Assembly: GCA_016935755.1 (NCBI GenBank)
Contig: JAFGQI010000015.1
Span: 62,001-126,000 of the forward strand
Direction: 5' to 3'
Origin: Anaerolineales bacterium
Lineage (GTDB): Bacteria > Chloroflexota > Anaerolineae > Anaerolineales > UBA4823
DNA length: 64,000 nt
Part shown: positions 22,287 through 55,829 of the stretch, piece by piece
Layout of the letters: the number at the start of each line of letters is the position of its first letter
How positions within the stretch are numbered: the first letter of the stretch is position 1
The notes under the pieces: generated by a model
Databases searched by the model: none
Seen by the model: only the letters and a program-made list of their open reading frames with translations
What the model was told of the DNA's origin: nothing
Program-made: the position numbers and the translations under genes

Positions 22287-22336
22287 ATATCCTCTGGTCA
22301 AACCAATTACGATATCCTCTGGTCAAACCAATTACG
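22287..22336. repeat. Perfect 25-bp tandem duplication spanning the gltA stop codon
   Basis: (atatcctctggtcaaaccaattacg)x2, period 25; the second copy contains the gltA stop complement. Confidence 0.95.
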
Positions 22337-23642
22337 ATCCTTTTGCCTTGGCAGCAACTGCTTCCAACATGGCGGTCGATAGCGATTTGGGCCGCTCTAA
22401 TGGCTGCCCCAGGGCACGCGCCCATACCGCGTTTGTAGTGACGCCCAGCGCCCTGCTAACGCCGAATAACACAGTGAGAAAATCGAACTCGCGCACACCG
22501 TAATGGTGCTGCAGCGAGCCGCTGATCGCATCCACATTCGGCCATGGATCCTTTGTGCGGGAATGGTCTCGCAGTACATCTGGCACAACATCGTAAACTA
22601 ATGATGCCAGGGCAAAAATTTGATCCTCTGGGAAGTGTTTTTTGCCGAAGGCCAGCTGAGCACTGAAGCGCGGGTCAGTCTTGCGCAGCACAGCATGACC
22701 ATATCCGGGGATAACCAGCCCACCTTGCAAGGTCTTCAGGGCATATTGATACAGTTGTTCTTTCGTGGGTAAGCCACCGAACTCATCATACACAGAGAGC
22801 AGCCAACCCAGGCATTCCTGATTTGCCAGCCCGTGCAGGGGGCCTGCTAATCCATTCATCCCAGCCGATAGAGCGTAATAAATATCACTCAATGCTGAAC
22901 CAACCAGGTGGGTGGCATGGGCGCTGACATTGCCGCTCTCGTGATCGGAATGGAGCAGCATATACAAACGGGTCAATTCATCATACCCTGAAGCTTCTAT
23001 TCCCATCATACGGGCGAAGTTTTGCCCAAAATCCAGCGCAGGATCGGGGGCGATGTAATTGCCATCTTTATACTTAAGACGATAAATGAAGGCAGCAATA
23101 CCGGGAAGTTTGGCAGTCAGGTTCAAACTATCTTCCAACATTGGATCCCAATATTCATCTTTTTTCAAGCCAGTATGATAGTGGTGGGCAAAGAGCGACT
23201 CGCGCTGCAGAGCCAGGATGCCCTGAGAGAGCAGGGTCATTGGGTGTGTGTCGACTGGCATGGCTTTCAGTACATCAAAGAGGTAACCGGGCAGCTTGCT
23301 GCGCTTCTTCCATTCGCTTTCAATTTCATTGGCTTCTTCTAGAGAAGGAATTTCACCGACCAATAGCAAATAATATAACCCACCGACCAGAGGAATTTCG
23401 TGCCCTGGCTGCTTGGGAAGCTTTTCCAGAAGATCATCGATGGTGTAGCCACGCAAGCGAATGCCCTGCTCCGGATCGACATAGGATATGTCAGTAACCA
23501 GGCTCTTGATATTCCGCATGCCGCCATAGATCTGGCCGATGTTGACTTCGTCAACTTTCACATCGGCGCTCTCTGCCAACAGCTTCTTCACCCGGGCGCG
23601 CCAGTCGGGCAGCTGTCCCGCAATTTTATGTTTAAGGTTCAT
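22332..23642 (-). CDS. gltA: Citrate synthase
   Basis: IRLRGYTIDDLLEKLP, HSDHESGNVSAHATHLVGSALSD, GLAGPLHGLANQECLGWL, GYGHAVLRKTDPR. Confidence 0.93.
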   Translation of the reverse strand: MNLKHKIAGQLPDWRARVKKLLAESADVKVDEVNIGQIYGGMRNIKSLVTDISYVDPEQGIRLRGYTIDDLLEKLPKQPGHEIPLVGGLYYLLLVGEIPSLEEANEIESEWKKRSKLPGYLFDVLKAMPVDTHPMTLLSQGILALQRESLFAHHYHTGLKKDEYWDPMLEDSLNLTAKLPGIAAFIYRLKYKDGNYIAPDPALDFGQNFARMMGIEASGYDELTRLYMLLHSDHESGNVSAHATHLVGSALSDIYYALSAGMNGLAGPLHGLANQECLGWLLSVYDEFGGLPTKEQLYQYALKTLQGGLVIPGYGHAVLRKTDPRFSAQLAFGKKHFPEDQIFALASLVYDVVPDVLRDHSRTKDPWPNVDAISGSLQHHYGVREFDFLTVLFGVSRALGVTTNAVWARALGQPLERPKSLSTAMLEAVAAKAKGS

Positions 23643-53516: not shown

Positions 53517-53540
53517 TGAAAAAGTTTCGGGAAAAATAAA

Positions 53541-53564
53541 AAAGGCGGTCCGCAGACCGCCTTT
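53541..53564 (-). terminator. Terminator of the S8 protease gene
   Basis: AAAGGCGGTC-TGCG-GACCGCCTTT followed by TTTATTTTT on the minus strand. Confidence 0.85.
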
Positions 53565-53583: not shown

Positions 53584-55611
53584 TTAATCTTCAGTTGACA
53601 GCTCGGTGTCTGCCCAGAAACCGCCGTCCGACCAGAAGCGACCGTCGGTCCAGAAGCCGCCGTCCGACCAGAAGCGACCGTCGGTCCAGAAGCCGCCATC
53701 CGACCAGAAGCGACCATCCGACCAGAAGCCGCCATCCGACCAGAAGCGACCATCCGACCAGAAACCGCCATCCGACCAGAAACGGCCTTCAGTCCAGAAA
53801 ACGTCATCCGACCAGAAGCGACCGTCAGCAAAGAAGCCGCCTGCATCGGCCCAGAAGCCGCCATCAGACCAAAAGCGACCATCGGTCCACAGACCGCTGT
53901 CTGACCAGAAGCGACCATCGGCCCAGAAGCCGCCATTGTTCCAGAAACCGCCCTCGCCCCAGAAGCTACCATTTGACCAGAAGCCGCTGTCCGCCCAGAA
54001 ACCGCCGTCCGACCAGAAGCGACCATCCGTCCAGAATTCGCTCTGGGTCCAGTCGCCGCCATCGCCCCAGAAGCCGCCATCCGACCAGAAGCGACCGTCA
54101 ATCCAGGCGCCACCTTCAAGTGGGGAGGTGACTCCATCCCAGACACCCGAACCGGCTGCCCAGCGACCGTCATCGCCGTACAAGCGGTAGATACCCTGGT
54201 CGTCGCGGAAACCGAAGCCCATGTAATGCACCTGGTTAGCCAGGTCTGCGGCGATATCCATATCGGAATTGGCAGAATCGTCCACAATCTGTGAGAAAAC
54301 AGCCAGAGGAGCGAAGACGCGCCCGGCGCCTTGTTGGTATACGCTGTAGATGGGCTGTCCGGTTTTTTCATTGAACTGCGGGATCGCGGTTGCCCTCAGC
54401 CGAGATTTGACCTGCGAAGGCGTCAGGGAGGGGTCATAGGATAGCATCAGGGCGGAAATTCCACTGACGACCGCGGCTGCCTGCGATGTGCCTGACATGC
54501 TGGAGTAATATGCGCTGAGTTTCTTGGGCGGCAGTAATTTGGCCAGTACAGCGTTGGGGTCCATGAGCGATAACATGTGCGCGCCAGGGGCTACCAGGTC
54601 AGGTTTAATAAAGCCATCATGGGTTGGTCCAGCCGATGAGAAGCTCGGGATGTAGTCGTCGCTCCAATCTGCAGGCGTATAGGCGTCAGTGAAAGCGCCT
54701 ACCGTGATGATGTAAGGATTGTTGCCGGGGACACCGACTGAGAGGGCATCCGGTCCAGTGTTGCCTGCTGCTGCGACCACCACGATGCCTGATTGCCAGG
54801 CGGCCATCAAAGCCAGGTTGACTGGATCTGCCCAGTAGGGTGTATGCACCGGGGCAGACATAGAGAAGTTCATTACGCGGGTATTGTAGCGCTGCTTAGT
54901 TTTTACAATCCACTGGATGCCCTGAATGACCTTCTCGTAGGTCGCAAAACCCTCTGCATTGGATACGCGAGCCACAACCAGGTCCACGTCAGGGGCGATA
55001 CCGTTATAGCTGCCGTCCAGGCCTACTTCGCTGTTGGCAATCACACCAGCCGTATGAGTGCCATGTCCATTCGGATCAACTTTATTATTGCTCCCATCAA
55101 TAAAATCCGCCCAGCCAATGACGCGGTTGCCTTTGCCGTTTGTGCCTTTTACCAGGCCAGGGTGTTTGATGATGCCGGTATCGATCATGGCGACAGCAAT
55201 ATCATTGCCAGTGAATCCTGCGGCCCAAACCGCATTGGCCCCGACGACCTCCGGATAATCGGTATCTGGCGCGGGATTGCCCTTGGGTTTGTAATCCAGG
55301 CTGTTGGTTTGCATCTCATGGTTAGGGGTCACAGAGATAATGCCCGCTGCCTTGGATAGGTTTTCCACGGCAGATGGGGGCAGGATGGCGCCAACAGCGT
55401 TAATAATGTCTAATTCCGATGTGATCGCGCCGCCATAGGCTCGCACCAGCTCAATTGCCTTACCAGTCGTTTCGCCCATGACGATGTAAGAGTCTCCCAT
55501 CGCGAGCGAAGCCGTCACCATGCTGGATGGAGTAACAAGCATGGTGATGGTGACTAGAAAGACAGTCATCCAGCAAAGGATCCGTTTATATCTAGTGGAG
55601 CAAGTGGTCAT
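53584..55611 (-). CDS. Secreted subtilisin-like (S8) serine protease with C-terminal Trp-rich hexapeptide tandem repeats
   Basis: Signal peptide-like N-terminus (MTTCSTRYKRILCWMTVFLVTITMLVTPSSMVTA); catalytic motifs VAMIDTGI (Asp), NGHGTHTAGVI (His), MSGTSQAAAVVSG (Ser); ~27 x [ST]DG[GR]FW tail; GGAGG upstream of ATG. Confidence 0.93.
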   Translation of the reverse strand: MTTCSTRYKRILCWMTVFLVTITMLVTPSSMVTASLAMGDSYIVMGETTGKAIELVRAYGGAITSELDIINAVGAILPPSAVENLSKAAGIISVTPNHEMQTNSLDYKPKGNPAPDTDYPEVVGANAVWAAGFTGNDIAVAMIDTGIIKHPGLVKGTNGKGNRVIGWADFIDGSNNKVDPNGHGTHTAGVIANSEVGLDGSYNGIAPDVDLVVARVSNAEGFATYEKVIQGIQWIVKTKQRYNTRVMNFSMSAPVHTPYWADPVNLALMAAWQSGIVVVAAAGNTGPDALSVGVPGNNPYIITVGAFTDAYTPADWSDDYIPSFSSAGPTHDGFIKPDLVAPGAHMLSLMDPNAVLAKLLPPKKLSAYYSSMSGTSQAAAVVSGISALMLSYDPSLTPSQVKSRLRATAIPQFNEKTGQPIYSVYQQGAGRVFAPLAVFSQIVDDSANSDMDIAADLANQVHYMGFGFRDDQGIYRLYGDDGRWAAGSGVWDGVTSPLEGGAWIDGRFWSDGGFWGDGGDWTQSEFWTDGRFWSDGGFWADSGFWSNGSFWGEGGFWNNGGFWADGRFWSDSGLWTDGRFWSDGGFWADAGGFFADGRFWSDDVFWTEGRFWSDGGFWSDGRFWSDGGFWSDGRFWSDGGFWTDGRFWSDGGFWTDGRFWSDGGFWADTELSTED
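53614..54102 (-). repeat. Coding tandem repeat, 18-bp unit (36-bp higher-order unit), encoding (SDGGFW[ST]DGRFW)n
   Basis: ~27 hexapeptide units read from the translation; one 7-aa irregular unit (ADAGGFF). Confidence 0.95.
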
Positions 55612-55687
55612 CGTAAGGCCTCCAAAAACGATCAGGAAAAGAACCAGATTGATCAAATAAAGATGCAAGATAATGACCAAAATCAAA

Positions 55688-55710
55688 ACGAGCCTGGAAT
55701 CCAGGCTCGT
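55688..55710 (-). terminator. Intrinsic terminator / attenuator downstream of the c-di-GMP riboswitch
   Basis: Minus strand ACGAGCCTGG-ATT-CCAGGCTCGT followed by TTTGATTTT. Confidence 0.8.
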
Positions 55711-55732: not shown

Positions 55733-55820
55733 TCCACCTCGGCAGCCTGGCAGTCATAACCTGAATAGGTCGTAGACCCATAGCTTTGCGCCACCGGCTT
55801 TCGCCGGGTTTGCCTTTTCG
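55733..55820 (-). ncRNA. Cyclic-di-GMP-I (GEMM-I) riboswitch
   Basis: Minus strand AAAAGGCAAACCCGGCGAAAGCCGGTGGCGCAAAGCTATGGGTCTACGACCTATTCAGGTTATGACTGCCAGGCTGCC; conserved GGCAAACC, GAAA tetraloop, GGNGGCGCAAAGC and GGGNCUA blocks of the GEMM-I family. Confidence 0.92.
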
Positions 55821-55829
55821 TTTGAAATA

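Follow-up and report, generated by a model that had tools for sequence, protein, structure and literature searches.

Introduction

Class I c-di-GMP riboswitches of Clostridioides difficile are transcriptional OFF switches, and one of them belongs to the gene of PPEP-1 (ZmpI/CD2830), a secreted surface protease that is made at low c-di-GMP and releases adhesins from the surface (PMC11477304). The locus described here, which lies in a 64,000-nucleotide stretch of Anaerolineales DNA (the whole stretch is referred to as the window), likewise combines a secreted protease gene with a class I c-di-GMP riboswitch. However, PPEP-1 is a zinc metalloprotease, whereas the window protein is an S8 serine protease with a tryptophan-repeat tail, in which Pfam detected only Peptidase_S8 and no zinc metalloprotease domain. 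The likeness is therefore one of presumed function between unrelated proteins.

For the protease part, the closest described proteins are those of peptidase family S8 (PF00082; best solved matches 9UES and 3AFG), with which the window protein has the complete catalytic domain and triad in common. These matches stop at residue ~434, whereas the window protein adds a conserved linker and the tail. With choline-binding and other aromatic cell-wall-binding repeats, the tail shares the principle of multivalent aromatic repeats on secreted enzymes, which carries the idea of retention; choline-binding units, however, are beta-hairpins of about 20 residues, and the window tail has no Pfam match to them. 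The ryegrass ice-binding beta-roll 3ULT, with its Gly-rich units of about 7 residues and one strand each, is a more tentative comparison, made through a period-7 relative. The catalytic domain and the riboswitch are thus of known kinds, but the tail itself and its fixed combination with them are without a match in Pfam, NCBIfam, PDB sequence matches and the open-access literature searched. The same literature yielded no description of the tail or of c-di-GMP switches in Chloroflexota.

Results

The protease and its domains

The features of the locus are collected in Table 1. The gene encodes 675 residues plus stop, and its ATG at 55611 is preceded by a GGAGG ribosome-binding site. A longer in-frame reading frame would extend back to 55839, across the riboswitch, and is an unlikely start. 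Pfam assigned a score of 173.1 bits to Peptidase_S8, against a gathering score of 21.8, and found no other domain in the whole protein. The triad and oxyanion motifs are in place (DTG with D144, HGTH with H183, AAGN with N284, and GTSQ with S376). The protein is accordingly a member of family S8, with catalytic activity predicted. The putative prodomain, to which the Pfam I9 model gave no match, forms a compact alpha/beta unit in the AlphaFold2 model (pLDDT 93-97 across residues 41-100), and the linker at residues 431-499 likewise has no Pfam match.

Table 1. Positions of the predicted features of the locus in the window.
Feature	Position	Strand	Evidence
S8 serine protease of subtilisin type, 675 aa, secreted, with a Trp-repeat tail	53584..55611	-	ORF and Pfam; D144, H183, S376 and oxyanion N284 invariant in the 18 members of alignment A1
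Signal peptide (putative), residues ~1-34	55510..55611	-	Basic n-region, then hydrophobic stretch; helix in AlphaFold2 model
N-terminal prodomain (putative), residues ~37-104, inhibitor-like	55300..55503	-	AlphaFold2 model and subtilisin-propeptide position
Catalytic domain Peptidase_S8, residues 135-430	54322..55209	-	PF00082, E 1e-50
Post-catalytic linker, residues 431-499, MDIxADLxxxxHYxGYxY motif	54115..54321	-	Conserved in alignment A1
Trp hexapeptide tail ([STA]DG[GR]FW)n, residues 500-675, 27 Trp, acidic C-terminus	53587..54114	-	Sequence, self-identity test, codon comparison
c-di-GMP-I riboswitch aptamer	55738..55824	-	RF01051; helices covary across 23 homologues
Helix P3 of the aptamer, 3' strand (CCAGGCT), potential antiterminator partner of the terminator 5' arm	55744..55750	-	Complementarity, folding, covariation
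Intrinsic terminator ACGAGCCTGGATTCCAGGCTCGTTTTGATTTT, downstream of the aptamer and ahead of the ATG	55679..55710	-	Sequence, leader survey, folding
Terminator-like hairpin after the gene AAAGGCGGTCTGCGGACCGCCTTTT	53540..53564	-	Read from sequence

The tail repeats at the protein level

Within its ~176 residues, the tail contains 24 units with an FW end and 18 Asp-Gly pairs. Its self-identity reaches 0.54 at a lag of 6, 0.60 at 12, and 0.57 at 24, compared with 0.25 as the best value of 2000 shuffles at any lag. The slight excess at 12 corresponds to alternating GR and GG units. At the DNA level, the copies are only ~70% alike at the 18-nt period, and the eight identical SDGGFW units have five different DNA spellings. 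The repeat is a protein-level and not a DNA-level repeat. Together with the open reading frame and the Peptidase_S8 match, the lag test bears out the original prediction of an S8 protease ending in Trp hexapeptide repeats. The view that the repeat has no named domain also held, as no Pfam or NCBIfam model matched the tail at E<=1, including models of RTX, choline-binding, hexapeptide, and pentapeptide repeats and of C-terminal sorting tags.

Relatives were sought in 61 related genomes and, by family alignment, in 84,980 species genomes. A contig search with the single window protein gave no match, and the family alignment A1 was needed there. The relatives from the two sets are located in Chloroflexota (Anaerolineae and neighbours) and in three Gammaproteobacteria (Colwellia, Glaciecola, and Halioglobus). 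A regular Trp tail, defined by at least three regular Trp steps, was present in 75 of the 77 S8 reading frames with a complete 3' end; the exceptions were the Halioglobus protein L122 and L061 with its short tail. Of the two findings that would have spoken against the original prediction, a known domain on the tail and absence of the tail from relatives, neither was made. The regular tails have 7 to 69 Trp (median 15) at a period of 6 or 7, so that the strict period of six proposed before applies to the window tail, where it is far above shuffles, but not as a general rule. As nearly all relatives come from metagenome-assembled or draft genomes, in which tandem arrays may collapse during assembly, these copy numbers are approximate.

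The units differ from clade to clade. Those around the window protein use GDGGFW, ADGGFW, and TDGGYW, and other relatives with period 6 use TGGYVW, TGGYSW, LGGYSW, and VGGYSW. Period-7 units include SGGYGAW, AGGYGAW, SGKYGVW, AGGHGSW, AGAMGNW, and ADGFDSW; more distant paralogues have a period of 5 (VNWNS/VNWNA), and in Glaciecola (L125) the tail has a period of 12. Searching the 61 genomes with a period-7 tail returned these protease genes only, noise aside. Its match L176 is a fragment of the Trp-tail protease family, while L173 was discarded as noise, being a dispersed repeat of the DNA (LEFGVWS) that was translated in three frames. A phylum-wide search with the tail alone gave weak matches, mostly to unrelated Trp-rich proteins; L037, L038, L041, and L045 belong to a different secreted family, and L042 is an S8 protease with a QTWTGG tail. 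No Trp tail is present in the S8 relatives from Actinobacteria and Bacillota that lie on plasmid records (L181-L184).

Units are uniform within a protein and can change together between species

Within one protein the units are nearly identical, and between species they differ. Their synonymous spelling varies from copy to copy: 11 SGGYGVW units of L055 have 10 DNA spellings, 11 TGGYSW units of L099 also have 10, nine AGGYSGW units of L091 have seven, and 23 DGGLVW units of L083 have 15. Selection therefore acts on the peptide, and the arrays are not fresh slippage products; recent DNA slippage as the origin of all arrays is ruled out by this synonymous diversity of identical units. As judged from codon comparison, the tail peptide is under purifying selection.

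In the GYxWxGG clade, 13 or 12 units are split 7(6)+6 around a fixed linker, with a unit residue that shifts in concert from one species to another (T/L/V/S). The proteins L099 (TGGYSW) and L101 (LGGYSW), which are very close on the tree, differ by T versus L in every unit while sharing the 7(6)+6 arrangement around a linker that ends in WQS, and they show no clear positional codon match. Most of the species pairs that we tested gave no clear signal of positional orthology of units. Replacement of an array followed by synonymous drift and a need for units to match one another would both fit such whole-array changes.

A c-di-GMP-I riboswitch precedes the gene

The riboswitch proposed upstream of the gene was confirmed by the RF01051 covariance model, which matched over its full length (1-87 of 87) with 80.1 bits (gathering score, 35), and by its conservation in relatives. 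It is the sole c-di-GMP-I riboswitch detected in this 4.1-Mb draft genome, which is 87.5% complete. The aptamer helices covary in the homologues: 93.4% of cells are paired and 14 pairs show double changes, a result equalled by 0 of 500 shuffles. The element is a real c-di-GMP-I riboswitch, for which ligand binding and gene control are predicted.

Nineteen of the 20 closest loci (L006-L025) have a c-di-GMP-I or c-di-GMP-I-GGC aptamer upstream, with L024 as the exception. Of 80 named loci, 33 have an aptamer directly upstream according to our own covariance model, which gave hardly any further matches in 881 kb; the 80 loci partly repeat the genomes of L006-L025, and the two counts are not independent. 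Across the 61 genomes, 26 of 31 Trp-tail protease matches had an aptamer upstream, as counted by hand from coordinates. Aptamer carriers form one clade on the tree (34 of its 39 rows, the window included), which requires as few as three state changes. The riboswitch-free clades keep the tail, and the tail and c-di-GMP control are therefore separable.

Aptamers also precede the paralogues L028 and L030-L033, several of them as tandem pairs. Such pairs stand before a second paralogue (L030:1066-1253, L031:2855-3042, L032:928-1165, and L033:1603-1790) that has VNWNA/VNWGS tails, the reading frame of L033 being cut before the tail. In two sister genomes, the protease gene is closely followed by a cobalamin riboswitch (L006:3547-3700 and L007:3590-3743). 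Other c-di-GMP-I aptamers in relatives head a secreted sortase-like family of ~250 aa (TLQTC...WGRLFV) and other predicted secreted surface proteins (L128:592-1350 (-), L134:604-1350 (-), L141:1770-2492, L143:702-1466 (-), and L144:1653-2351); in two of the sortase-like proteins, Pfam Sortase scored below the cut-off.

The leader has the architecture of a probable OFF switch

About 30 of the 34 leaders have a strong intrinsic terminator 20-40 nt past the aptamer, and three or four (L064, L072, and L075 among them) are without a clear one. The 5' arm of the terminator, which usually resembles GGCCTGGC, can base-pair with the 3' strand of helix P3 in the aptamer (GCCAGGCTGCC). Compared with shuffled downstream sequence, the duplex energy has a mean z of -1.8, with 16 of 34 leaders below -2 and the window at -1.3, and the complementarity is not significant in every leader, the window's own included. 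When the window RNA is cut before the 3' arm of the terminator, CCAGGCU pairs with AGCCUGG in an antiterminator fold, and the complete leader folds into the terminator.

As ligand binding needs P3, and as the P3 strand is shared with the antiterminator, c-di-GMP should promote termination. The riboswitch is thus probably a transcriptional OFF switch, with the protease made at low c-di-GMP, a direction that we infer from static folding. The original prediction of a possible c-di-GMP-regulated surface or matrix-processing factor is upheld as to the riboswitch; as to the sense of regulation, the OFF architecture suggests expression at low c-di-GMP and favours release or dispersal over matrix building.

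Signalling genes adjoin the protease in many relatives

In the window, the downstream neighbour is the rplU end of a ribosomal-protein cluster and the upstream neighbour is the divergent ppdK (names from reading the translations). With a terminator-like hairpin behind it, the protease gene appears to be its own transcription unit. Many relatives have, within a few hundred bases, a convergent gene for a protein of ~1150-1250 aa with zinc-ribbon, class III nucleotidyl cyclase, AAA_16, and TPR parts (L047:7830-11540 (-) and ~30 other loci, such as L048, L051-L053, L056-L059, L063, L065, L066, L068-L072, L074, L079, L081, L083, L085-L090, L093, L100, L103, and L126). The only paralogues of this protein in the window genome are 23-39% identical to it, and none adjoins the protease.

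In the riboswitch-free GYxW clade, a gene for a membrane histidine kinase of ~500 residues follows on the same strand 0-330 bp downstream at 13 loci (L095:7725-9275, L098, L099, L101, L104, L106, L107, L108, L110, L113, L116, L117, and L121), with two protease-kinase pairs each in L098 and L107. An HD-GYP gene starts 4 bp downstream of the protease in L102 (7966-9450). In the marine Gammaproteobacteria, too, c-di-GMP or two-component genes adjoin the protease: a propeller-GGDEF gene 105 bp downstream in Glaciecola (L125:7821-11132), a propeller hybrid kinase gene in Colwellia (L112:7515-12131), and a GGDEF gene upstream in Halioglobus (L122). These recurrent neighbours suggest that in most lineages the protease is controlled by signalling, through means that differ between them.

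Discussion

What the tail could be

We tentatively favour, at slightly below an even chance, a secreted subtilase made at low c-di-GMP that is retained at the surface or matrix by its multivalent Trp tail and cuts surface or matrix proteins. Among the other explanations, a structural one makes the tail a beta-roll or beta-solenoid with one strand per 6-7 residues and two units per coil, which polymerises or stacks in register and builds the protease into a fibre; identical units would then be needed because equivalent residues stack on one another. The uniformity of units despite differing codons agrees with this, as do the fixed unit count and linker of the GYxWxGG clade during coherent shifts of the unit residue. 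As lag 12 is the strongest in the window tail and the Glaciecola tail repeats at 12, a beta-roll with two units per coil is a reasonable guess, to which disorder with evenly spaced aromatic stickers would be the alternative. The models speak less clearly. AlphaFold2, with an 18-row alignment, modelled the prodomain and much of the catalytic domain with good confidence but left the window tail unstructured (pLDDT ~25). The tail of a period-7 relative, modelled alone, showed a weak pattern of one strand per unit, with pLDDT ~60-64 in its best blocks. The profile of this tail matched 3ULT with E 1.8e-4, which may be compositional and is without structural support, as Foldseek with the low-confidence model gave nothing significant (best E 0.47, for a CsgA fibril and 3ULT). 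The solenoid or stacked beta structure originally proposed is a candidate fold, and the glycan-binding surface a candidate role. As units of 5, 6, and 7 within one superfamily also argue against one rigid solenoid, we regard a fibre-building beta-roll as doubtful.

The disorder of the modelled tail would suit a substrate-like, autoinhibitory, or processing tail that is lost on activation instead of a binding module, and subtilases commonly bear removable C-terminal extensions. However, some clades preserve both the number of units and the internal linkers, and hardly any tail has lost its regular Trp, which is more than a disposable tail would need; we consider such a role improbable. The neighbouring genes raise the thought that protease and tail belong to a signalling loop, processing or presenting a ligand for a neighbouring sensor, with c-di-GMP or a kinase setting the level. 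The kinase, HD-GYP, propeller-GGDEF, and propeller hybrid kinase genes beside riboswitch-free proteases, and the cyclase-AAA-TPR protein at other loci, point in this direction, but none of these genes adjoins the window protease, and the cyclase neighbour is convergent and therefore not co-transcribed with it; this makes the loop unlikely, though less so than a disposable tail. Least probable is that an ordinary secreted protease acquired the tail by neutral expansion of a DNA repeat. Repeat number does differ between sister species (13 versus 21 Trp in L050 and L054), but identical units are spelled with different synonymous codons, the tail persists in almost all complete relatives despite their differing unit sequences, and within the 61 genomes only these proteases carry period-7 tails.

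A possible course of events

By the surface-retention reading, events could run as follows. The c-di-GMP-I aptamer, identified by the covariance model, heads the mRNA. With c-di-GMP bound, P3 would hold CCAGGCT, the terminator would form, and transcription would stop; without the ligand, CCAGGCT would pair with the 5' arm of the terminator and the gene would be read, an architecture taken from sequence and folding. The domain order suggests that a pre-pro-subtilase would be exported and matured by loss of the prodomain. The 10-70 equally spaced Trp could then form a multivalent aromatic module which, by binding or self-stacking, would keep the protease on a polymer such as the sheath, EPS, the S-layer, or another cell-surface protein. 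Cleavage of surface or matrix proteins would favour detachment or remodelling as c-di-GMP falls, as switch polarity and analogy to PPEP-1 suggest.

The best reading is that the protease would be functionally like PPEP-1, though unrelated to it. Retention by the tail is a real possibility that we put just under one half; surface proteins as the substrate class have the same standing, and so does a role in dispersal. For the reading as a whole it counts that further aptamers of relatives precede genes for predicted secreted proteins and for a sortase-like family. With less assurance, we further propose that the tail may represent a novel class of Trp-ladder modules whose units are all required to match, and which would make the protease a surface-retained actuator, coupled to c-di-GMP or to a sensor, that occurs widely in Chloroflexota and extends to a few marine Gammaproteobacteria.

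If the surface-retention reading is true, the locus provides a concrete c-di-GMP output for Chloroflexota, a phylum for which we found no published target of such riboswitches, and a second, independently evolved riboswitch-controlled surface protease. The arrays, in which codons drift, 10-70 copies are kept alike as protein, and residues switch together between species, amount to a natural experiment with conserved spacing and uniformity but changing letters. They should help to address how uniformity is maintained in protein repeats and which ligands aromatic ladders bind. Elsewhere in the window, a short perfect 25-nt tandem repeat with 2.1 copies lies at 22287-22338.
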